From NCBI GenBank assembly GCA_029858505.1, contig JAOUEW010000003.1:124001-188000 (forward strand): 64,000 nt of DNA, given 5' to 3'. Shown here in pieces: positions 28,172-40,280 of the stretch. Origin of the DNA: Deltaproteobacteria bacterium. GTDB lineage: Bacteria; SAR324; JACQKK01. The notes beneath the pieces were generated by a model, which was not told where the DNA came from, did not search any database, and was given only the letters and a program-made list of their open reading frames with translations. The position numbers and the translations under genes are program-made. Each line of letters starts with the position of its first letter. Position 1 is the stretch's first letter.

Positions 28172-29446
28172 TTATTCATCGCCTGAAATATTCAGGATCA
28201 AATCCACCATTCGCTCTCGGGTGGCCGGTTCAATGTCTTCCGGTACTTTTTGCCCAGTGGTGAGATAGGCCACGGGAATTTTGAAGCGAATGGCATGGTT
28301 GAAGATGGCCCCATAGGTGGCGCATTCGTCCAATTTGGTGAACACCACCCCCCGCAGTGGAATTTGGCTGAAGCGGCGGGTGACTTCGGTCATCTCGGCG
28401 TCTTTGGTGGTGGCCGACAGGGTTAGCCACACGTCGGTCTGTTCCATGTCTTCAAACAGCCGGAATATCTCGGCCATCTGCACGTCATCGCGCTGGGAGC
28501 GCCCCCCGGTGTCGATCAGCACCAGGTCCTTGCGGGAAAAGTCGGCCAGGGCACGCTCCAATTCGGCGCGGTTCGACACCACGGCGATGGGCACCTCCAT
28601 AATCTTGGCGTAGATTTTCAACTGCTCCACCGCGGCAATGCGAAAGGTATCGATGGTAATCAACCCCACGCTGACCCTGTGTTTCAGCATCTGTTCCGAA
28701 GCCAGCTTGGCCACCGTGGTGGTTTTTCCCACCCCGGTGGGTCCCACCAGGGCAATCACCTTGCGTTTGCCGCTGCCCGCGTGAAAGGGCCCCGTCACCG
28801 GAACAATCTTCATCATCATCCGGGCCAAAAACACCTTTACGTAGTGGAAATCTTCCTGGTCTGCCGGGGGGATGGCATTCATGGCCTCTTCCACCAGCCG
28901 GTGGGCAAACTTTTCTTCCATGCCGCTGAAGATCAACTGCTGGTAGAGCACCACCAAATTTTCCGAGAAGTCGGCATCGCGCAGCCCCTGAGATTTGGCG
29001 GTAAGAATTTGCACCATTTGGCGGGTTTCGGCAATTTCGGCCCGCAGTTGGTTCATCACCGATTCGTTTACCGCCGGGTTGGCGCGGGCCTGGGCCGATT
29101 CCACCATGTCTTTCAACTGCTGAATGTCCTCGTGCAGGGGGTTCAGCAGGCTTTCGGTTTCCATGCGGCTGCGCATCAGCAGCTGCCGCAACTGGTCGCC
29201 ATCGGCGGGGGCCTTGCCCTGGCCTGAGCGTGGATTGGCCGCCAGCAGGGCTTCTAGTTCGGGGCTGTTTTCACCGTTGTCGTTGGCGGCGGTAACCTCT
29301 AGCATGGGCCGGCCAAACAGGCCAAAGGCCCCCTTGCCCCCCCGCACATGGCGGGTGGAAAGTATGATGGCGTTGCTGCCCATCTCCTTCTTGACTTTGT
29401 CCAGCGCCTCTTGCATGTCGGCGCCCCGAAACCGTTTAATCTGCAT
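28172..29446 (-). CDS. flhF: Flagellar biosynthesis GTPase FlhF
   Basis: A 424-residue SRP-type GTPase. The N-terminal basic B domain begins MQIKRFRGADMQEALDKVKKEMG. The NG domain has ALVGPTGVGKTTTVAKLAS (about 232-250), TIDTFRIAAVEQL, VLIDTGGRSQRD (about 311-322) and FTKLDECATYG (about 375-385). It places the first flagellar basal-body parts at the pole. It lies between flhA and flhG, the standard order. Confidence 0.96.
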   Translation of the reverse strand: MQIKRFRGADMQEALDKVKKEMGSNAIILSTRHVRGGKGAFGLFGRPMLEVTAANDNGENSPELEALLAANPRSGQGKAPADGDQLRQLLMRSRMETESLLNPLHEDIQQLKDMVESAQARANPAVNESVMNQLRAEIAETRQMVQILTAKSQGLRDADFSENLVVLYQQLIFSGMEEKFAHRLVEEAMNAIPPADQEDFHYVKVFLARMMMKIVPVTGPFHAGSGKRKVIALVGPTGVGKTTTVAKLASEQMLKHRVSVGLITIDTFRIAAVEQLKIYAKIMEVPIAVVSNRAELERALADFSRKDLVLIDTGGRSQRDDVQMAEIFRLFEDMEQTDVWLTLSATTKDAEMTEVTRRFSQIPLRGVVFTKLDECATYGAIFNHAIRFKIPVAYLTTGQKVPEDIEPATRERMVDLILNISGDE

Positions 29447-29495
29447 GTCGGAAAGGATAGAGGGTTAAGGACCGGCCCTCCCCGGTCTGGTTTCG

Positions 29496-31598
29496 TTACC
29501 CCACCACGCCCAACGATTCAATTCGGACGTCGGCGGATATTTCGTTGTGAGACAACACCACCAGGTTGGGAATAAACCTCTCGGTCAGCCGCTTCACGTG
29601 GGGGCGGATGACCGGAGAACACAATAGTATGGGTTGATAGTTAAAGGCGGTGAAGCGATCCATCTGACCCTCGATACTTTTGATGATGTTTTGCGCGATG
29701 GAAGGATCCAGCCCCAGATAAGAACCCTGGGGGGTGGTGTGAATGGCTTCGGCCAGTTGGTCTTCCATCTCTTGGGTCAAGGCCACCAGGGGCAGCAGGC
29801 CGTCGGGGGTTTGGTATTGGCGGGTAATGGTGCGGGCCATGGCTTGGCGAACGTATTCGGTCAGCACTTCGGGATCTTTGGTCATGGTGGCGTAGTCGGC
29901 CAACGACTCCAACACGGTGTGCATATCCCGAATGGACACCCGCTCTCGCAGCAGGTTTTGCAGCACCTTTTGAATGCCGCCCAGGCTCAACACGTTGGGA
30001 ATCAACTCTTCCACCACCTTGGGCTCGGTCTTGGCAAAGTTGTCCATCAGTTTCTGGGTTTCTTGGCGGCCCAAGAACTCGGGAGAATGGCGTTTGATGA
30101 CCTCGGTGATGTGGGTGGCCAGCACGGTGGGAATATCAACCACGGTGTAGCCGGAGAATTGGGCTTTTTCCTGATCGTCGGGGGCCACCCAAATGGCAGG
30201 CAACCCGAAGGCCGGTTCGATGGTTTCAATGCCCGCGATGTTTTCCTCCACGTTGCCGGTTTTCATGGCCAGCAGGTGGTCGGTCAGCAGTTCTCCACGG
30301 CCCACTTCCACCCCCTTGATGGTCACGGAATATCCCCCAGGGGGAAGCTCCAGGTTGTCTTTGATGTGGATGGGCGGAACGATGAAACCCATGTCCAGGG
30401 CCACCTGGCGGCGGATGGATTTGATGCGGTCCAGCAGCTCGCCATCCTGGTCTTTGTCCACCAGCGGAATCAACCCATAGCCCAGCTCCAGCCCCAGCCG
30501 GTCAATGGGCAGCATGGTCTCAATGTCTTCCGGGGCCTCCTCGGCCATTTTTTGGGTGTCGGCCAGGGCGGTTTGGGCCTCGGCCAGGGCCATCCGCTCT
30601 TCGTTGGTGTATTGCAGATAGGCCATGGTGCCAGAAAGCACCGACATCACCAGCATGGGCAGGGTGGGAATCCCCGGAATGACCGCGAAGAACAGCAGCA
30701 CGCCAGACACCATGCCCATGGCCCGGCTGTTGGTGATGATTTCTTTTTTTAGGCCCTCTCCAATGGAGGACTCCAGGGCCGATTTCGACACCGCGATACC
30801 GGCCGCCACCGAGATGACCAGGGCGGGAAGCTGAGAAACCAAGCCATCGCCCACGGTGAGGATGGTGTAGGTTTGCACGGCGGCGGAAAGGTCCATGTTG
30901 TGCTGGGCCACCCCAATGATCAGCCCCCCCACCAAGTTCACCCCGGTAATAATCAACCCGGCAATGGCATCGCCCCGCACAAACTTACTGGCACCGTCCA
31001 TGGCCCCGTAGAAGTCGGCCTCTTGCTGAATTTTCAACCGCCGGGCCTTGGCTTCTTTGTCGTTGATGATGCCAGCGTTGAGGTCGGCATCAATGGCCAT
31101 TTGTTTCCCCGGCATGGCGTCCAAGGTAAAGCGGGCCCCCACCTCGGCAATCCGCCCAGCGCCCTTGGTGATCACCACGAAGTTGATGATGACCAGGATC
31201 AGGAAAATGATGATCCCCACGATGTAATTCCCCCCCACCACAAAGTCGCCAAAGGCCCGAATCAACTGGCCAGCGGCATCTTTGCCGTGGGCCCCGTTGC
31301 CCAGAATCAACCGGGTAGAGGCCACGTTCAACGACAAGCGGAACAGGGTGGTAATGAGAAGGACAACCGGGAATGAAGAAAAATCTAGGGCCTGAACGGT
31401 AAACAGGGAGACAAACAAAATTAAGATGGAAATGCCAATATTTAACGCCAGCAACAGGTCCAACAGCAGGGTGGGCAGGGGCAGCACCAGCATGGCAATG
31501 ATGGCGATCACGCCAAACGCCACCACCAGGTCAGAACTCCGCCCGACGGAGGGGGTGCCGCCTCCGGCGGGAGGGGCTTTGGTCGCCTGGGTTGCCAT
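29496..31598 (-). CDS. flhA: Flagellar export gate protein FlhA
   Basis: A 700-residue export gate subunit. The N-terminal part has about eight membrane helices, beginning VVAFGVIAIIAMLVLPLPT; the FHIPEP-type signature region includes GARFTLDAMPGKQMAIDADLNAG (about 154-176). The C-terminal cytoplasmic domain binds export chaperones (VGRGELLTDHLLAM, EPAFGLPAIWV, ITEVIKRHSPEFLGRQE). Length and features are complete. It sits between flhB and flhF. Confidence 0.97.
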   Translation of the reverse strand: MATQATKAPPAGGGTPSVGRSSDLVVAFGVIAIIAMLVLPLPTLLLDLLLALNIGISILILFVSLFTVQALDFSSFPVVLLITTLFRLSLNVASTRLILGNGAHGKDAAGQLIRAFGDFVVGGNYIVGIIIFLILVIINFVVITKGAGRIAEVGARFTLDAMPGKQMAIDADLNAGIINDKEAKARRLKIQQEADFYGAMDGASKFVRGDAIAGLIITGVNLVGGLIIGVAQHNMDLSAAVQTYTILTVGDGLVSQLPALVISVAAGIAVSKSALESSIGEGLKKEIITNSRAMGMVSGVLLFFAVIPGIPTLPMLVMSVLSGTMAYLQYTNEERMALAEAQTALADTQKMAEEAPEDIETMLPIDRLGLELGYGLIPLVDKDQDGELLDRIKSIRRQVALDMGFIVPPIHIKDNLELPPGGYSVTIKGVEVGRGELLTDHLLAMKTGNVEENIAGIETIEPAFGLPAIWVAPDDQEKAQFSGYTVVDIPTVLATHITEVIKRHSPEFLGRQETQKLMDNFAKTEPKVVEELIPNVLSLGGIQKVLQNLLRERVSIRDMHTVLESLADYATMTKDPEVLTEYVRQAMARTITRQYQTPDGLLPLVALTQEMEDQLAEAIHTTPQGSYLGLDPSIAQNIIKSIEGQMDRFTAFNYQPILLCSPVIRPHVKRLTERFIPNLVVLSHNEISADVRIESLGVVG

Positions 31599-31831
31599 GG
31601 GTCACTCCTTGGAGACTCTGTCCGTGAGCTCTCGTATCCGCCAGCGTAACACATGAAAAGGGCGGAAAAAAAGGGGGGGACGCACCAATAGCCCAGGAAA
31701 AACCGGGAAATGACCTGGGGCAAACCCAGGGGACAAGCCATGAAAAAGCAACGGAAACGCAGGGGGAAATAGCCAACAATCACCTCCAACTGGACTCAAG
31801 ACCAGTGCCCGTTCCCTGGTTCGCACCCTGG

Positions 31832-32893
31832 CTACTTGAGGGTTTTCCCCTTCAGGCGGTACACATAGGCCAAAATCTCGGCCACGGCCCGGAACAACCC
31901 CTCCGGGATTTCCTGGCCAATTTCCACGTGCTTGTAAATTTCTCTGGCCACCACCGGGTTTTCCACCAGGGGCACGTTGTTTTCCCGGGCCACTTCGCGA
32001 ATGCGCTGGGCAATAAAGTCGGCCCCCTTGGCCACCACCCGAGGAGACGCCATGATTTCCCGGTCATACTGCAAGGCCACCGCAAAGTGGGTGGGGTTGG
32101 TCACCACCACGTCGGCCTTGGGCACGTGCTCCATCATGCGGGCCTGAGACATGTTCCGCATGATTTGCCGGATGCGGGATTTTAGCTGCGGATTCCCCTC
32201 CGTCTCCTTCATCTCTTCTTTCATTTCCTGCTTGGTCATCATCAGCTGGCGGTCCAGGTTCCACCGCTGAAACAGAAAATCAAACAGGGCCAGAATCACC
32301 AAGGCAATGGCCACCCGCCCGAACAGCACCCCCACCAGCGACAGGTTAAAATCTAAAATGGCTTCGGGCTTTAAGCGGAACAGCTGAAACAGGGGGAAAA
32401 TTTCTTCCTCTAAAGAAACGTAGATGACATACCCCACCACGATCATCTTGAACAGGCTCTTCAGCAGCTCGGCAAAGGCGCTCATGGAGAACAGCCGTTT
32501 CATGCCCTCCAGCGGGTTCACCCGCTCGAACTTAAACTTGAAAGGAACAATCAACAACCCCACCTGCATAAACGAAGAAAACAGGGCCACCGCCATGGCC
32601 AAGGCAAACACACCCAACATAAAGGGGGTCACCAGCACCACGGTGTCGATGAAAAATTTTTGCAGCAGAGGAACGGTGAAATCTTGCTGGGAGAGATTTT
32701 GAAAGGAGGACACCCACAATTGCCGGAGGGTGTTGATTCCCAGTTGCCCGGTAAACAGAAAATACAGTGACATGGCCCCCAACATGGCGGCAGAGGTTAC
32801 TTCGCGAGAGATGGCCACCTGGCCCTCTTGGCGGGAGTCCTCCCGCCGTTTATCGGATGGTGCCTCGGATTTTTCTTGCCCGCTTTCGGCCAT
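31832..32893 (-). CDS. flhB: Flagellar export switch protein FlhB
   Basis: A 353-residue protein beginning with the charged ESGQEKSEAPSDKRREDSRQEGQVA segment typical of FlhB (shown here only in part by type). Four membrane helices lie between about 33 and 215. The autocleavage motif NPTH lies in VVTNPTHFAVAL near residue 268, after which the substrate-specificity switch occurs. The gene follows fliR by 3 bases; 233 non-coding bases separate it from flhA. Confidence 0.96.
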   Translation of the reverse strand: MAESGQEKSEAPSDKRREDSRQEGQVAISREVTSAAMLGAMSLYFLFTGQLGINTLRQLWVSSFQNLSQQDFTVPLLQKFFIDTVVLVTPFMLGVFALAMAVALFSSFMQVGLLIVPFKFKFERVNPLEGMKRLFSMSAFAELLKSLFKMIVVGYVIYVSLEEEIFPLFQLFRLKPEAILDFNLSLVGVLFGRVAIALVILALFDFLFQRWNLDRQLMMTKQEMKEEMKETEGNPQLKSRIRQIMRNMSQARMMEHVPKADVVVTNPTHFAVALQYDREIMASPRVVAKGADFIAQRIREVARENNVPLVENPVVAREIYKHVEIGQEIPEGLFRAVAEILAYVYRLKGKTLK

Positions 32894-32896
32894 GCG

Positions 32897-33682
32897 TTAC
32901 CCCCCCAGGGCCTTCAGTTCACCAAACAAAATGGGCTCCAGCCGCCCCACCACTTCGGTGACCGATTGAATGAAAAACGGAAAGCCGATTCCCAGGAACA
33001 AAATGCCCATGCCGATGGTGAGGGGCACCCCCACCACAAACACGTTCATTTGGGGCACGCTGCGGGCCACCAGCCCCAATGCCAAGTTGGCCGCCAGCAG
33101 GGCCGCCACCAGGGGGGCCCCCACCTGAATGCCCACCACAAACAGGCTGCCGGTGAGGTTGAGCACAAAATCATAGGCGGGACGGGTAAGGGCAAACTCG
33201 CCGGTGCCAATCAGTTTATAACTGTTGGCCAGGGCTTCAATGAACAAGTGATGGCCGTCGGCCATCACTAAAATAAGCAGGGCAAAGCTCGACAGCACTT
33301 GGCTGAACAAAGAAACCTGCTGGGCCGACAATGGATCGAACACATGGGCCATCCCCAGGCCGGTCTGAAAACCGATCAATTCCCCCGCCAGTTCAATGCC
33401 CACCATCAGCAGCCGGGCTGCCAGGCCAATCAACAACCCCACGGCCAGTTCCCCGGTCATCAGCACAATCAATTCCATCAGGGGGGGGTTGAGGGGCAGG
33501 TGGGGGTGGGCCACCAGGGGGTAGAATACCAGAGAGAGAATCAAGGCAAACCCGGATTTGACTGGAACGGGAGTGGTGGCATCTCCAAAAATGGGGGCGG
33601 CGGCCATCACGCCGGAAATCCGGGTGAGAATCAGAAAAAACCCCAGAAACTGGTTGGGGTCAAAATTGAGCAGATTTACCAT
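32897..33682 (-). CDS. fliR: Flagellar export gate protein FliR
   Basis: A 261-residue integral membrane protein with about six helices. Typical segments are FFLILTRISGVMAAAPIFG near the N-terminus and GELIGFQTGLGMAHVFDP (about 117-134). It is part of the FliPQR-FlhBA export gate. It is the first gene of the leftward flagellar block here. fliP and fliQ, which usually precede it, are not in the window, so the operon is split in this genome. Confidence 0.95.
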   Translation of the reverse strand: MVNLLNFDPNQFLGFFLILTRISGVMAAAPIFGDATTPVPVKSGFALILSLVFYPLVAHPHLPLNPPLMELIVLMTGELAVGLLIGLAARLLMVGIELAGELIGFQTGLGMAHVFDPLSAQQVSLFSQVLSSFALLILVMADGHHLFIEALANSYKLIGTGEFALTRPAYDFVLNLTGSLFVVGIQVGAPLVAALLAANLALGLVARSVPQMNVFVVGVPLTIGMGILFLGIGFPFFIQSVTEVVGRLEPILFGELKALGG

Positions 33683-33824: not shown

Positions 33825-34475
33825 CTACACCTTGATACGGATTTCGGTGATACGCAACAAGCTCAGGGGTTCCCCCGCTTCCACCACCAGCGGTTGAAAG
33901 GCCGGGTTCATGGGTTGCAGAATGGTGGTGGAACCATGCCGGTGGAGGGTTTTCACCGTGTATTCGCTGTGGTTTCGACCGGCCAACACAATGGCCCCAT
34001 TGTGCACCGGGGCCGATGGGCTCACCAACAGGTGGGCCCCCGGAGGAATGTGGGCCCCCACCATGCTTTCTCCCTCGGCCACCACAAAAAACGCCTGGGG
34101 GTCGGCAATGTCAACCGGTTCAAAGCCCTCTGGGTCCCCTGAAGCCGATTCTAACCAGGGGCCACAGGCGGCCTGCCCCAGCACGGGCACCAGCCGCTGA
34201 GAGGCCGAAGGCTTGGGAATCATGGGGCGGCGCTCGAACAAATGCTGCACGGTCTCTGGGGCTTTTTCCCGGTAGGCGGTCGAAATCAGGTCGGATGAAT
34301 CCAGCCCCAGTTTATCGGCATAGAACAGCAGGGTTTTGTCTTTGGGAATGTGCCCGTCGGAAATGACCTTGCGGAACAACTCGTAAGGCAACTCCAATTG
34401 CCGGGCGCATTCTTTAATGTCTTCGAATCCCAATTGCTGCACCCGTTTTTTCAGCATGTCTGCCAGATTGGCCAT
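33825..34475 (-). CDS. LexA/CI-type autocleaving repressor
   Basis: A 216-residue regulator. The N-terminal 70 residues are a helix-turn-helix-like helical domain unlike the LexA winged helix. The C-terminal half is a peptidase S24 domain: cleavage bond Cys104-Gly105 in AACGPW, catalytic Ser137 in GESMVG and Lys175 in YTVKTLHR. Such repressors cut themselves when RecA is activated, lifting repression after DNA damage. It is divergent from the hydrogenase-like operon and may control it or itself. Not the standard lexA by its N-terminus; more like a phage-type repressor. No other phage gene is adjacent. Confidence 0.85.
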   Translation of the reverse strand: MANLADMLKKRVQQLGFEDIKECARQLELPYELFRKVISDGHIPKDKTLLFYADKLGLDSSDLISTAYREKAPETVQHLFERRPMIPKPSASQRLVPVLGQAACGPWLESASGDPEGFEPVDIADPQAFFVVAEGESMVGAHIPPGAHLLVSPSAPVHNGAIVLAGRNHSEYTVKTLHRHGSTTILQPMNPAFQPLVVEAGEPLSLLRITEIRIKV

Positions 34476-34855: not shown

Positions 34856-35836
34856 ATGACCCTGACCCGCCGACAAATTCTGCAATGGACCTCGGCCATC
34901 GCCGCTGGAACCCTGGTTTCAGAGGGGTTGGTGAACGTGACCCGGGCTTTGGCCGCCCAGCCCTCCCGCAATCCCATTCTGTGGTTTGCCTTAGAGGGCG
35001 GCGGCCACACCCAGCTCACTCACCTCACCCGAGAACTGCCTGAGTTTTTAGACCTGGTCACCACCCAATTTCAGGTGGAACGGTATGACTGGCTAGAGCC
35101 CGCCGGGGTAGACGTCAAAACCAATCCCTTTCCCTCCGCCCCGGTATTGGTGTTGGAGGGCGTGCCCTCCAAAGCAGACCTGATGGGCGAACGTTACTCG
35201 GCCCTGCGAAATGAACTGTCTCGGGCCAAGGCCGTGGTGATGTTGGGCACCGAGGCTTGCTACGGCGGGTTTCTCACCCCCACGGAAGACCTGAACGCTT
35301 TCCAGGCCCTGTGCAAGACCAGCAGCACCCCGGTGGTGAAACTCCCCGGAATCCCTGTCCCCCCCCATCACATCGTGGGCACCCTGGCCTATCTAGAATT
35401 AGGGTTCCCCCGGGTAGATGCCTTTCGGCGGCCAGTAATGTATTACAGCGAGACCGTCTGCCAGCGCTGCGAACGGCGGGGTGACCTGGAACAGGGCCGT
35501 TTCTCAGAATCGTTGGGCGAGCCGGGATGCCTATACCTTCGGGGATGCAAAGGACCGGTGACCCACAACACCTGCGCCGTGAACAAATGGAACGGGGGAG
35601 AAAACTGGTGCGTGGGGGCAGGCAGCCCCTGCACAGGGTGTTCCGATCCCTCCTATCCTGATTTCGGCGGGCTGGGCTTGTACGGCAGGCTGCCGGGAGA
35701 CCAGATGGGCATTCACTCCACCCTGTCGCAGCAGGTCGAAACCGCCGGATGGGGCATGTTTGGGCTGGCTGGCATGGGCTTGGCTTTGCACCTGCTGAAA
35801 AAATACCTCCGTTTCGACTCCGAACCCCACTCCTAA
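34856..35836 (+). CDS. [NiFe]-hydrogenase small-subunit-like protein lacking the proximal cluster
   Basis: A 326-residue protein with a Tat signal (TRRQILQW, Arg5-Arg6; exported in folded form) and a C-terminal hydrophobic anchor (about 297-314). It aligns with group 1 small subunits, but the proximal 4Fe-4S ligands are missing. The first CxxC site reads LEGGGHTQL (47-55), the PGCPP site reads PGIPVPP (164-170), and only a shifted Cys135 (GTEACYGG) remains. The other two clusters are intact: distal C202, C205, C225, C231, with Cys in place of the usual His, and medial C240, C252, C259, C262, with Cys in place of the usual Pro, as in NiFeSe hydrogenases. Two 4Fe-4S clusters are therefore expected. 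The frame is open and well conserved, so not a simple pseudogene. It cannot be a normal hydrogenase subunit. Confidence 0.88.
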   Translation: MTLTRRQILQWTSAIAAGTLVSEGLVNVTRALAAQPSRNPILWFALEGGGHTQLTHLTRELPEFLDLVTTQFQVERYDWLEPAGVDVKTNPFPSAPVLVLEGVPSKADLMGERYSALRNELSRAKAVVMLGTEACYGGFLTPTEDLNAFQALCKTSSTPVVKLPGIPVPPHHIVGTLAYLELGFPRVDAFRRPVMYYSETVCQRCERRGDLEQGRFSESLGEPGCLYLRGCKGPVTHNTCAVNKWNGGENWCVGAGSPCTGCSDPSYPDFGGLGLYGRLPGDQMGIHSTLSQQVETAGWGMFGLAGMGLALHLLKKYLRFDSEPHS

Positions 35837-35850
35837 GCCCGCCCAGATCC

Positions 35851-37317
35851 ATGACCACCATTCGATTCCAGGTTCCCCGGGTAGAAGGGGGCGCCGCCCT
35901 GATTCAAGATGGAACCGGCCATATTGGCGTTGAGGGCCGGCCCACCCGTCAGGCTGAAAAAGCCCTGACGAACCGCCATATTTCCGAGGCCGTGTTTCTC
36001 ACCCAGCAAATCTCCGCCGAAAGCGGAATGTGCCATGCCCTGGCCTCTGTGCGGGCCTGGGAAGACGCCGCCGGGGCCCAGGTGGACGAAAACGGGATGC
36101 TGCTGCGGGAACTGCTGCAAAGCCTGCATTTGCTGCAAACCCATCTGGTTCATTTTTATTATAGGGCCCTGCCAGATTACCTGCCCATGGCCGCCCTGGC
36201 CGAATACCATGGCTCTAACCCCTCGCTGCGGCGGGTGGGGGCCCGCCTGCGCCAAGATACCCGCAGCACCTGGAGCTCGGCCACCATCCCCCTGGCCTTC
36301 ACCCGGCAGGATGCCGATCAACTGGCCGTAAACATGGCCCAGGCCCAACGGGTGGTGGGTACCCTTCAGCGGATGTCGGCCCTGGTGGGGGGCAAAACTC
36401 CCATGGTCATGAGCATTGGCCCCGGCGGGGTGGGCGTGGAGGTGACCGAAGACTTGGTGTTCCGGCTAGACCGTTACCTTTCGGAAGTCGAACCATTTGT
36501 TTCGGAGGCCCAGGATGACGCCCTGCTGCTCAACCGAACGGTGCCCGGGTTAAAAAACGGCGGGCGGGGAGAGGGGGCCTTCCTGTCGTCGGGGTTTGGT
36601 AACATTGGGGGGAAAAGCAGCACCACGCTGCCCGCGGGCCTGTTCCGAGAAGACAACATCCATCCATTGGAAGGCGTGTTCTTGGAGGAAACCGCCAAGT
36701 CATTCTACACCCTACCCACCGCGGAGTCTGGCAGTGTGATGCTCCCGGACCCTAAAAAAGACAAGGCCTATTCTTGGGTGAAAGCCCCCCGGTTGGGAAA
36801 GCTGCCCCTGGAAGTGGGCGCCGCGGCACGCCTAGCCGTGGGAAAGACCTCTGGCTATCTATCGGCCGATCATCCCGCCTTGGCCCTGATGGCCCGCGCA
36901 GGCATAGACCCCCAACATTCCGCGACCAGCGGCGGGCGCATGGCGGCCCGGGCTGGAGAAATGAGCCTGCTGGTGGATCGGGCCCGGGAAATTTTGGCCC
37001 GCTTAATCCCCGGCAAGCCCGCCGCCCGGTCATCATGGGGGGTCAACTCCGCCAGCGGAACCGGCGTGGGGCGGGTAGAAGCCCCGGCTGGCACCCTGCA
37101 GCACAAAGTTTGGCTCGACGATGGCATCATTACCAGCTACGACATCATTTCGCCCAGCGCCTGGAATGGCAGCCCGGCCGACGACAAGGGAAAATCAGGC
37201 CCCCTGGAAACCGCCCTCAATGGGCAGGGCATTGACCTGTCCTCCAAGTGGGGGCAGCGACTGGCCTCTCAAATTGTGCATTCCTTCCAGTTCAGCGGCG
37301 CCGACGCCGTGGAGTAG
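35851..37317 (+). CDS. [NiFe]-hydrogenase large-subunit-like protein without Ni-Fe ligands
   Basis: A 488-residue protein starting MTTIRFQVPRVEGG, 14 bases after the small subunit. It aligns along its length with group 1 large subunits: RVEGG (10-14), CHALASVRAWEDA (61-73), YSWVKAPRLG, LEVGAAARL, SAWNGSPADDKG, and VHSF near the end. All four active-site cysteines are replaced. The N-terminal RICGVC site reads QISAES (53-58; Ser55, Ser58), and the C-terminal DPCxxC site reads QFSGAD (480-485; Ser482, Asp485). The arginine of EAPRG is alanine (EAPAG). The protein stops where the maturation protease normally cleaves, so no tail needs removal. It cannot bind Ni-Fe as hydrogenases do. It would reach the periplasm with the Tat-borne small subunit. 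Function unknown; a redox or structural role is possible. Confidence 0.88.
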   Translation: MTTIRFQVPRVEGGAALIQDGTGHIGVEGRPTRQAEKALTNRHISEAVFLTQQISAESGMCHALASVRAWEDAAGAQVDENGMLLRELLQSLHLLQTHLVHFYYRALPDYLPMAALAEYHGSNPSLRRVGARLRQDTRSTWSSATIPLAFTRQDADQLAVNMAQAQRVVGTLQRMSALVGGKTPMVMSIGPGGVGVEVTEDLVFRLDRYLSEVEPFVSEAQDDALLLNRTVPGLKNGGRGEGAFLSSGFGNIGGKSSTTLPAGLFREDNIHPLEGVFLEETAKSFYTLPTAESGSVMLPDPKKDKAYSWVKAPRLGKLPLEVGAAARLAVGKTSGYLSADHPALALMARAGIDPQHSATSGGRMAARAGEMSLLVDRAREILARLIPGKPAARSSWGVNSASGTGVGRVEAPAGTLQHKVWLDDGIITSYDIISPSAWNGSPADDKGKSGPLETALNGQGIDLSSKWGQRLASQIVHSFQFSGADAVE

Positions 37318-37696
37318 CCCCGCCGCCAAACGATGACATCTGGGGAACCATGCTCGAATCCACTGGCTCGTCTCTTCATCCGTTCAACCGGCGAAGCCGA
37401 AAGGAAGCAAACACAATTCGTTTTGGCTTCGAGATACGACCGAACAGCACCCCTCCCTGGCGCCTGCGTCGCCTGTCCCTCCCCATCGTAGAGGGACAAT
37501 ACGGCTTAGACCGAAGGGTAGAGATAAAATACATGCGGAGGGTGAAACCGAACAGCAGCCAGTACATCCCCCATTGGATTTGAGTATGGGGTGCTGTTGG
37601 AAGTGGGGAACCAGTTGGGATGGCGAAAACGTTGAAAACAGGAATAAGAAGTTTGGCGAAGAGATCAATTCATAGGGCAAGCCACGGAACACCGCC
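37318..37696. other. Gap between hydrogenase-like subunits and cytochrome, no gene seen
   Basis: About 380 bases with no supported coding frame on either strand. It contains short near-repeats (ccgaacagca at two places, about 37440 and 37548) and a ccctccccatcgtagaggga inverted stretch near 37477-37496. The gap suggests the cytochrome gene may have its own promoter. Confidence 0.4.
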
Positions 37697-38302
37697 ATGA
37701 GCAAAGAAACCACCCTTCCCCCCAAGAAAAAATTCTGGGACATCCGCCTGTCCTCTCCCCACATCCGCCAATTGATTGGGTGGATGATCCTGGGAGACCG
37801 GGTGTTTATGTTTCTATTTGAAGTCATCGGCCCCCTGGCCCTGGGGCTGCTGGTGCTAAGCGGAGAAATGATCCGCAACCCCCAAGTACTAAGCCCCTAC
37901 CCCATTCCCAGCATGTGGCGCGGCATGCACCTCACTGCCGGGTTGATCTGGGCGGGTCTGTTCCTGGGAAGAATGACCTACCAGGGGGTGGTTCTTTGGC
38001 TCCAAACCTCCGGCCCCGCCAAGCAGCGCGCCCAGCAGGCCATGGCCCGTTTGGCCGCCCTGGGGGCGGTGACCCTGGCCCTGCACGCGCTGGTGGCCAT
38101 GTTGGTGGTGTCTGGGCTGTCTCTCTATTTGGGAATGCGGTTGCAGGTTCCGCCTCTCATCGGTCTGGCCACGTTAAACCAATGGCGGATGATTCACTTG
38201 CTCTCCGTTCCCTTCTTCTATGCCCTGGGGGTGTTGGCCCTTAGGGAATGGCTGCGGAAAAGTTATCCGTGGTTCCGGGCGGTGTGGTCCGGCCTTCGGT
38301 AG
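37697..38302 (+). CDS. Hydrogenase-type b cytochrome-like membrane protein
   Basis: A 201-residue protein with four hydrophobic helices (about 37-60, 72-98, 115-140 and 157-185), similar in layout to HupC/HyaC cytochromes that pass electrons from periplasmic hydrogenase to quinone. Histidines in helices 2-4 (MHLTAG, ALHALV, MIHLLS) could bind haem b. The first helix lacks the usual histidine, so one of the two haems may be missing or differently bound. It follows the hydrogenase-like subunits in the same direction, so I infer it is their membrane partner. Confidence 0.7.
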   Translation: MSKETTLPPKKKFWDIRLSSPHIRQLIGWMILGDRVFMFLFEVIGPLALGLLVLSGEMIRNPQVLSPYPIPSMWRGMHLTAGLIWAGLFLGRMTYQGVVLWLQTSGPAKQRAQQAMARLAALGAVTLALHALVAMLVVSGLSLYLGMRLQVPPLIGLATLNQWRMIHLLSVPFFYALGVLALREWLRKSYPWFRAVWSGLR

Positions 38303-38420
38303 GAGCGACCCCCCGGTCGGCCTGAATAGACGCCCCTCCAGAACCGTAGTATCATAAAAATATAGACAATCTTTTTGCCACCCAATGTTCAACACGCCAG
38401 CCCGACCTTTAAGGAGCCCC

Positions 38421-40280
38421 ATGGCCGCACGCAACTTTTTCAAAGCTGATCTTCGAGAGTTGGAATTCGCCCTGCTGGAACAATTCCAGGTGGAAGACCT
38501 GTTCGGTAAGGCCCCTTACGCCGCCATGACCCGTGAAGACGTGAAGATGATTTTGCAAGAGGCCCACACCTTCGTGTCGGACGTGGTGGGGCCCACCCTG
38601 CAAGAAAGCGACCGGGAAGGCTGCCAAATCGCCCCCAACGGAAAGGTGACCGTTCCCGCCTGCCTGAAACCCGCCTGGAAGGCGTATTTTGAAAACGGCT
38701 GGAACGGGCTGGCGCTGCCAGAAAGCCGGGGTGGCCAAAGTGCCCCCCACCTGTTGGACATGGCCGTGCTGGAGATGTTCACGGCGGCCAACGCGGCCTT
38801 CGCCATGTATCCGGGGTTAACCAGCGGCGCCGCTGAAGTAATTGCCCGCATGGGCAGCCCGGAGCAAAAGAAGCTGTTCCTGCCCCCCATGGACACGGGC
38901 CGCTGGGCGGGCACCATGCTGCTCACCGAGGCCCAAGCCGGCAGCGACGTGGGGCTGAACGCCGCCAAGGCCGTGAAGAACCCCGATGGCTCCTATTCCC
39001 TCACCGGCACTAAAATTTTCATCTCCGGGGGAGATCAAGACCTTACCGAAAACATCATCCACTTGGCCCTGGCCCGGGTAGAAGGCGCCCCCAAAGGCAC
39101 CAAGGGGCTTTCCCTGTTTATTGTTCCCAAAATTTTGGTGAACCCCGATGGCAGCCTGGGTGCCCCCAACGATGTGGTCTGCACTGGCATTGAGCACAAA
39201 ATGGGGATTCACGCCTCGGCCACCTGCACCCTGTCGTTCGGAGAGAAGGGCAAGTGCGTGGGGTATATGGTGGGGGGCGAACCCAAGGCGGGGGTAGAAC
39301 CAGGGGCCGGGATGCGCAAGATGTTCACCATGATGAACCTGGCCCGCATTGGGGTGGGGGTGCAGTCGCTGGGGGTGGCCTCCACCGCCTACCTGAACGC
39401 CCTGGAATACGCCCGCACCCGCCGGCAGGGCGCCCACCTGCGCAAGGGCCGCCCCCCTGAAGGGGCCGTGCCCATCATTCAGCACCCAGATGTCCGCCGG
39501 ATGCTGCTAGAGATGAAATCCCAGGTCGAGGGCTGCCGGGCGCTGATTTACCATGCCATCCGCCTGCAAGACCAAGCCAACATTGCCGCCCAAACCGACC
39601 CGGCCAAGGGAGAGGAACTGCTGGATTACGTGGGGCTGTTCATTCCGCTGGTGAAGGCCTACGTGTCCGACACCGCCCTGGCGGTGGCCTCCACCGCCAT
39701 GCAGGTCTATGGCGGGGCCGGATACACCCGCGACTACCCAGCCGAGCAATACATGCGCGACGCCCGCATCTTCCCCATTTACGAGGGAACCAACGGCATT
39801 CAGGCCATGGATTTGGTGGGCCGCAAACTGGCCCAAAACGGCGGGGCCCTGGTGGGGCGGTTTGGGGAAGAGGCCGGGTCTTTTGCCGCCAAGCTGAAAG
39901 AGCAATCGGCCTGGAACACCGAAGCCGGATTGCTGACCCGGGCTGTCGAGAGCTACAAAAAAGTGGTGGGTGACTACATGGCCTTCTTTACTCAAGACAA
40001 GATGGAGTTGATTCCCCTCACCGGCACGCGCTTTTTGAACCTGATGGCCAAAATCGCCATTGCCAACCTGCTGCTGCAAGGTGCCCGGCTGGCCGAGGAA
40101 AAACTGGCCAAGACCGACCCGGAAAGCCGCGATGGCATGTTCTATCGGGGAAAAATCGCTTCGGCTCGGTTTTTCACCCGCAACATTCTGCCCCAGGCTG
40201 TGGCGGAGGCGGAGATCATTTCCAGCGGAGACCCCACCGCCCTTGATATCCCCGACGGGGGCTTTTCAACGGCTTGGTAA
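38421..40280 (+). CDS. Acyl-CoA dehydrogenase
   Basis: A 619-residue FAD enzyme of the long acyl-CoA dehydrogenase group with an extra C-terminal helical domain. Features are TMLLTEAQAGSDVG (FAD/substrate contact), the ISGGDQDLTENI region, GIEHKMGIHASATC, VQSLGVASTAYLNAL and the catalytic glutamate in FPIYEGTNGIQAMDL (near residue 455). It oxidises acyl-CoA to enoyl-CoA and gives electrons to ETF. The ATG at 38421 follows AAGGAG after 4 bases. It is 118 bases downstream of the cytochrome gene in the same direction. The ETF/EMO genes at 455-4311 are natural partners. Confidence 0.95.
   Translation: MAARNFFKADLRELEFALLEQFQVEDLFGKAPYAAMTREDVKMILQEAHTFVSDVVGPTLQESDREGCQIAPNGKVTVPACLKPAWKAYFENGWNGLALPESRGGQSAPHLLDMAVLEMFTAANAAFAMYPGLTSGAAEVIARMGSPEQKKLFLPPMDTGRWAGTMLLTEAQAGSDVGLNAAKAVKNPDGSYSLTGTKIFISGGDQDLTENIIHLALARVEGAPKGTKGLSLFIVPKILVNPDGSLGAPNDVVCTGIEHKMGIHASATCTLSFGEKGKCVGYMVGGEPKAGVEPGAGMRKMFTMMNLARIGVGVQSLGVASTAYLNALEYARTRRQGAHLRKGRPPEGAVPIIQHPDVRRMLLEMKSQVEGCRALIYHAIRLQDQANIAAQTDPAKGEELLDYVGLFIPLVKAYVSDTALAVASTAMQVYGGAGYTRDYPAEQYMRDARIFPIYEGTNGIQAMDLVGRKLAQNGGALVGRFGEEAGSFAAKLKEQSAWNTEAGLLTRAVESYKKVVGDYMAFFTQDKMELIPLTGTRFLNLMAKIAIANLLLQGARLAEEKLAKTDPESRDGMFYRGKIASARFFTRNILPQAVAEAEIISSGDPTALDIPDGGFSTAW

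Follow-up and report, generated by a model that had tools for sequence, protein, structure and literature searches.

Genes of the locus and the large subunit

The window, by which we mean the whole analysed stretch of 64,000 nucleotides, harbours an operon in which a small-subunit homologue of [NiFe] hydrogenases is directly followed by a large-subunit homologue and then by a membrane protein that stands where hydrogenase operons have the cytochrome b subunit (Table 1). The window belongs to the candidate phylum SAR324; most of the contigs that matched carry SAR324 cluster bacterium or Candidatus Lambdaproteobacteria as title. In total we found this type of large subunit as 17 proteins in 17 SAR324 genomes, with 23-44% identity to the window protein. 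The carriers fall into two families, f1, which includes the window, and f4.

Table 1. Features of the window, with positions counted from its first nucleotide. Residue numbers without a HyaB label are those of the window proteins.
Feature	Position	Strand	Remarks
flhF-flhA-flhB-fliR flagellar genes	28172..33682	-	beside the operon; genomic context
S24-peptidase-type (LexA/CI-like) regulator	33825..34475	-	divergent from the operon; same place in 7/9 f1 loci
Small-subunit homologue, 326 aa	34856..35836	+	Tat leader, C-terminal hydrophobic helix; directly upstream of the large subunit
Region with the eight invariant Cys of the small subunit	35459..35641	+	invariant in 17/17
Large-subunit homologue, 488 aa, no Ni-Fe ligands	35851..37317	+	profile matches, ligand alignment, AlphaFold2
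S55 / S58 codons	36013-36015 / 36022-36024	+	alignment to HyaB C76/C79
A413 codon (for Arg509)	37087-37089	+	alignment to HyaB
S482 / D485 codons	37294-37296 / 37303-37305	+	alignment to HyaB C576/C579
Membrane protein, 201 aa, position of the cytochrome b subunit	37697..38302	+	two conserved His
Acyl-CoA dehydrogenase	38385..40280	+	after the operon; 7/7 f1 loci with a contig long enough

The large subunit matches the Pfam family NiFeSe_Hases with 5e-53 and the NCBIfam hydrogenase model NF033181 with 1e-61 (residues 29-461), whereas the complex I subunit D profile reaches 0.0026. Solved group 1 enzymes also match, the [NiFeSe] enzymes best (8e-30). The AlphaFold2 model (pLDDT 88) predicts that the group 1 fold is preserved, its closest PDB structures being large subunits of the group 1 type, both [NiFeSe] and [NiFe], with TM scores of 0.81-0.89 relative to query length.

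The alignment to E. coli HyaB reveals that the two N-terminal Ni-Fe cysteines C76 and C79 are replaced by S55 and S58, and the C-terminal C576 and C579 by S482 and D485. The catalytic residues are also changed (R509 to A413, D574 to Q480), and the protein stops with E488 at the position of the maturation cut-site His, without a C-terminal extension. The initial annotation, which had claimed that every Ni-Fe ligand is replaced and that the protein ends at the maturation cut site, was therefore accurate in these points. None of the 17 SAR324 homologues retains any of the four cysteines, and Arg509 and Asp574 are missing from all of them. The replacements follow a pattern: the second C-terminal position (C579) is acidic throughout (Asp in 16, Glu in one), and Ser occupies each of the N-terminal positions in 14 of the 17. 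Glu28 and His83 (HyaB numbering) are kept in the window protein and in 17/17 homologues, and the pocket residues Glu12, His62, Arg86 and Asp485 are still conserved. Selenocysteine in place of the missing C-terminal Cys was considered and rejected, as the SAR324 proteins continue to a conserved end and the stop codons of a second, Bacillota family (see below) are variously TAG, TAA and TGA.

Small subunit, membrane partner and maturation genes

A Tat leader, a C-terminal helix and the membrane gene after the large subunit are common to all 17 loci, and the twin-arginine motif of the leader is nearly invariant across the SAR324 small subunits. The N-terminal domain of the window protein has G49, T52, E133 and I166 in place of the cysteines of the proximal cluster. 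Not one of these four cysteines is retained in any of the 17 SAR324 small subunits; 67-69 of 69 relatives have them. The third position carries an acidic residue in 17/17; at the other positions f1 and f4 have different replacements. The initial annotation had described only the large subunit and was thus incomplete; because the proximal cluster has been lost as well, the mechanistic reading changes.

The remaining cluster sites are kept. Eight cysteines, C202, C205, C225 and C231 at the distal and C240, C252, C259 and C262 at the medial site, are invariant in all 17 small subunits. C202 stands for the usual distal His, an exchange present in 17/17, whereas the other 69 small subunits compared all have His. 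The fourth medial Cys is also found in most relatives (47/69) and is therefore probably inherited rather than new. We infer from the sequence alone that the eight residues would hold two all-Cys [4Fe-4S] clusters. The AlphaFold model of the small subunit is poor (pLDDT 60) and was left out of the fold search; therefore we make no statement on the cavity.

A membrane protein with two conserved His follows the large subunit in 17/17 loci. The window protein has only a weak DUF4405 match and none to PF01292 (Ni_hydr_CYTB); homologues match PF01292 with 4e-6 and 0.025, which is under the curated cut-off. Its prediction as a quinone-side haem b protein thus rests on the two His and on weak Pfam matches. 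A gap of 379 bases (37317-37697) separates the two genes in the window; in other loci they overlap or lie within about 15 bases. No ion-pump subunits were identified beside the genes of the complex in the annotated loci.

The genome of the window (97% complete) contains neither HypD nor the HycI protease, and the ligand-free protein is its only NiFe large subunit. HypD is missing from nine of the 17 carrier genomes (7/9 in f1, 2/8 in f4), five of which are at least 90% complete. Several of the carriers with HypD have further large-subunit matches elsewhere in the genome, and their HypD may possibly serve other hydrogenases. The complex is maintained without HypD.

These data bear on the question of whether the complex could still be a hydrogenase, with a metal centre ligated by Ser and Asp. 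The group 1 fold and the second-sphere residues Glu28 and His83 would fit such a view. However, four Cys, Arg509, Asp574 and the entire proximal cluster are gone, HypD is missing from 9/17 carriers and HycI from the window genome. Going by sequence and gene content alone, we regard this explanation as very unlikely.

Distribution, selection and genomic neighbourhood

Among 52 SAR324 genomes the complex is present in 9/10 of family f1 and 8/10 of family f4, and was not found in the 31 genomes of family f2 nor in the single f3 genome. When 84,980 species genomes were scanned with the small-subunit alignment, 236 relatives were recovered and the top 80 retained. The first 16 of these make up the SAR324 set, and the proximal Cys are present in nearly all loci ranked lower. 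The scan relied on two conserved peptides, so that highly divergent members could escape. No close relative was found in viral and plasmid collections.

Both trees were built without the ligand columns. A branch with a support of 100/100 separates the 17 large subunits from all others, and the 17 small subunits are grouped with an SH-aLRT value of 100. Sequences of f1 and f4 separate inside the SAR324 clade, as vertical descent predicts. For the closest computable large-subunit pairs (about 60% identity) dN/dS is 0.10-0.16 with LWL85, and a more distant pair gave 0.36-0.39. These figures are rough because dS is saturated, and saturation also made YN00 and, for the closest pairs, NG86 uncomputable. 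We consider the intact frames and the invariant cysteines to be firmer evidence of selection than dN/dS. The initial annotation had predicted a clade of such proteins under purifying selection, and this prediction held, with 17 homologues and no ligand Cys in any of them. Near relatives with intact cysteines together with relaxed selection, named there as a refutation, were not met within SAR324. A sequencing or assembly error at both ligand sites fails as an explanation, as the 16 other SAR324 genomes show the same losses in intact frames.

A decaying pseudogene or an artefact can accordingly be all but excluded. Fast evolution would speak for decay, since the terminal branch of the window large subunit amounts to about 1.1 changes per site. 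Against it stand 17 independent assemblies with open frames, a conserved operon, eight invariant cysteines and dN/dS well below 1.

A second ligand-free family was found in the Bacillota. L058 (9062-10414) and L077 (7148-8497), which had first been counted as canonical, also lack the ligands, and such a large subunit is encoded by 8 of 10 genomes of the Thermincola class (L159-L166; 47-100% identity to L077). Of the two N-terminal ligand positions, the first is occupied by Ser or Asn and the second by Asp; Gln, His or Gly stands for Arg509, and the protein is truncated at ...RSF just before DPCxxC, with differing stop codons. In three of the eight (L163-L165) a Cys lies one residue ahead of the first ligand position. 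A ninth genome (G054) encodes a distant ligand-free large subunit (L167, 33% identity) with the motif RINSHLS and the end RAFE, adjoining a small subunit with all cluster motifs. Like the SAR324 complex, the Thermincola group has an exported group 1-like small-large-cytochrome b operon without Ni-Fe ligands. In contrast to SAR324, its large subunit is truncated, the proximal cluster and the distal His are kept (proximal, medial and distal motifs are all retained in the small subunits checked), and a typical Ni_hydr_CYTB cytochrome b lies downstream in the two loci examined. In the tree L058 and L077 are placed away from the SAR324 clade, and therefore the ligands were probably lost at least twice in exported group 1-like enzymes. 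The initial annotation knew of no described case in exported group 1 enzymes. We also found no description of Ni-ligand loss in group 1 in the literature searched, which is weak evidence as only open-access texts were covered, yet the Thermincola group is a separate family of this kind.

Flagellar genes are neighbours of the operon in 13/17 loci, and their arrangement is of two kinds. In 7/8 f4 loci (L036-L042) the operon lies on the same strand behind a run of flagellar genes whose last member is fliI, with overlapping start and stop codons in some, and in f1 it lies opposite flhA-flhB-fliR in 6/9 loci (the window, L043, L044 and L046-L048). In the window genome fliI is on another contig, with the complex not nearby. 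One could suppose a redox device linked to the flagellum, for example a sensor of quinone or periplasmic redox state that serves energy taxis, or a complex sited close to the flagellar export gate, and the 13 loci with their two arrangements support this. However, FlhA is found in 51/52 SAR324 genomes, so that co-occurrence is uninformative on a flagellar link, and nearly all SAR324 genomes have flagella, the 31 f2 genomes without the complex included. In addition, four loci lie elsewhere or are unresolved, and shared ancestry of the position could explain part of the pattern. We consider this reading unlikely.

The S24-type protein is possibly a regulator of the operon. The acyl-CoA dehydrogenase is linked by position, and we do not claim that it is part of the complex; both are taken as leads and not as evidence of function. 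The Fe-S domain of ETF-quinone oxidoreductase (PF05187) was missing from all nine SAR324 genomes searched, carriers and non-carriers of the complex alike. The f1 members carry the acyl-CoA dehydrogenase although PF05187 is missing; ETF-quinone oxidoreductase as its missing partner was rejected, as the absence is irrespective of the complex. Downstream of the operon, the f4 loci (L036-L042) have a VanY-type D,D-carboxypeptidase and in some cases CoaE, and in four f4 loci a calcineurin-like phosphoesterase lies upstream.

Relation to known systems and possible function

The closest known systems are the membrane-bound group 1 uptake [NiFe] and [NiFeSe] hydrogenases of the HyaABC and HysAB type. 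They share with the SAR324 complex the small-large-cytochrome b order, the Tat leader, the fold of the large subunit, the medial and distal cluster sites and the C-terminal anchor helix. The SAR324 complex differs in having no Ni-Fe ligands, no catalytic Arg and Asp, no proximal cluster, no C-terminal extension and a Cys for the distal His, and over half of its carriers lack HypD. A hydrogenase-derived large subunit without Ni-Fe ligands is also known from complex I (NuoD/NuoB, 49 kDa/PSST) and from Ehr and group 4f proteins, for the latter two of which ligand loss has been described (PMC4378227, PMC13019369). These relatives have membrane subunits of the ion-pump type, whereas the SAR324 complex has a Tat leader and a group 1-type sequence. 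Complex I keeps the proximal-equivalent cluster N2, without medial and distal clusters on that subunit, which is the reverse of the SAR324 case.

The losses, the retained ligands, the operon and its conservation are shown from the sequences. As to function, we lean, with a probability of roughly 0.58, towards a conserved membrane-anchored periplasmic electron-transfer complex built on a dead hydrogenase scaffold; location, haem and electron transfer are inferred, and there are no expression or biochemical data. The ancestor would have been an exported, membrane-bound group 1 [NiFe] hydrogenase, whose descendant would no longer activate H2. Tat export would place the complex on the periplasmic face, where the two [4Fe-4S] clusters and haem b may connect the quinone pool by electron transfer with a periplasmic partner that is not identified, in a direction that is not shown. 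The large subunit would then serve as folding partner and docking surface.

Several points speak against this reading. To retain a whole 490-aa large subunit merely as a scaffold is costly, and the conserved Glu12, His62, Arg86 and Asp485 suggest that the pocket does something. With the NiFe centre and the proximal cluster gone, hydrogenase geometry puts the medial cluster beyond the reach of direct electron transfer with the old active site. The haem b assignment is weakly founded, and the small-subunit model is poor.

The alternative that we consider closest to it, although we would not favour it, is a new enzyme in which the cavity of the NiFe centre and the proximal cluster holds another cofactor or a substrate (a quinone, a flavin, or a metal bound via Asp, Glu, Ser or His) that exchanges electrons with the two remaining clusters. 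By analogy, complex I made a quinone site of the same cavity. The replacements are constrained, being acidic at C579 and at the third proximal Cys in 17/17 and Ser in 14/17, with Glu28 and His83 kept in 17/17, and owing to the acidic residues a new cofactor or substrate site stays possible. However, no cofactor-binding motif was recognised, the other proximal replacements vary between the two SAR324 families, and the low quality of the small-subunit model precludes any judgement of the cavity. A bolder version, which we rate rather below an even chance, would see here an undescribed class of exported redox complexes, with the cavity recruited for a different cofactor or substrate as an independent periplasmic counterpart of the step from hydrogenase to complex I.

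An H2 enzyme has apparently been converted into something else, whose job is not identified. Complex I is classically supposed to have arisen through a hydrogenase losing its Ni-Fe site, a loss known from group 4 relatives. That exported group 1-like enzymes have lost this site on two separate occasions, once with the proximal cluster kept and once without it, provides natural replicates of this step. In a survey of SAR324, hydrogenases of aquifer genomes were assigned to group 1d with HydDB (PMC9031357), and no ligand check is mentioned in the passages bearing on them. Annotation by homology calls the genes described here "nickel-dependent hydrogenase", so that for SAR324, a phylum widespread in the ocean, predictions may overstate H2 metabolism.
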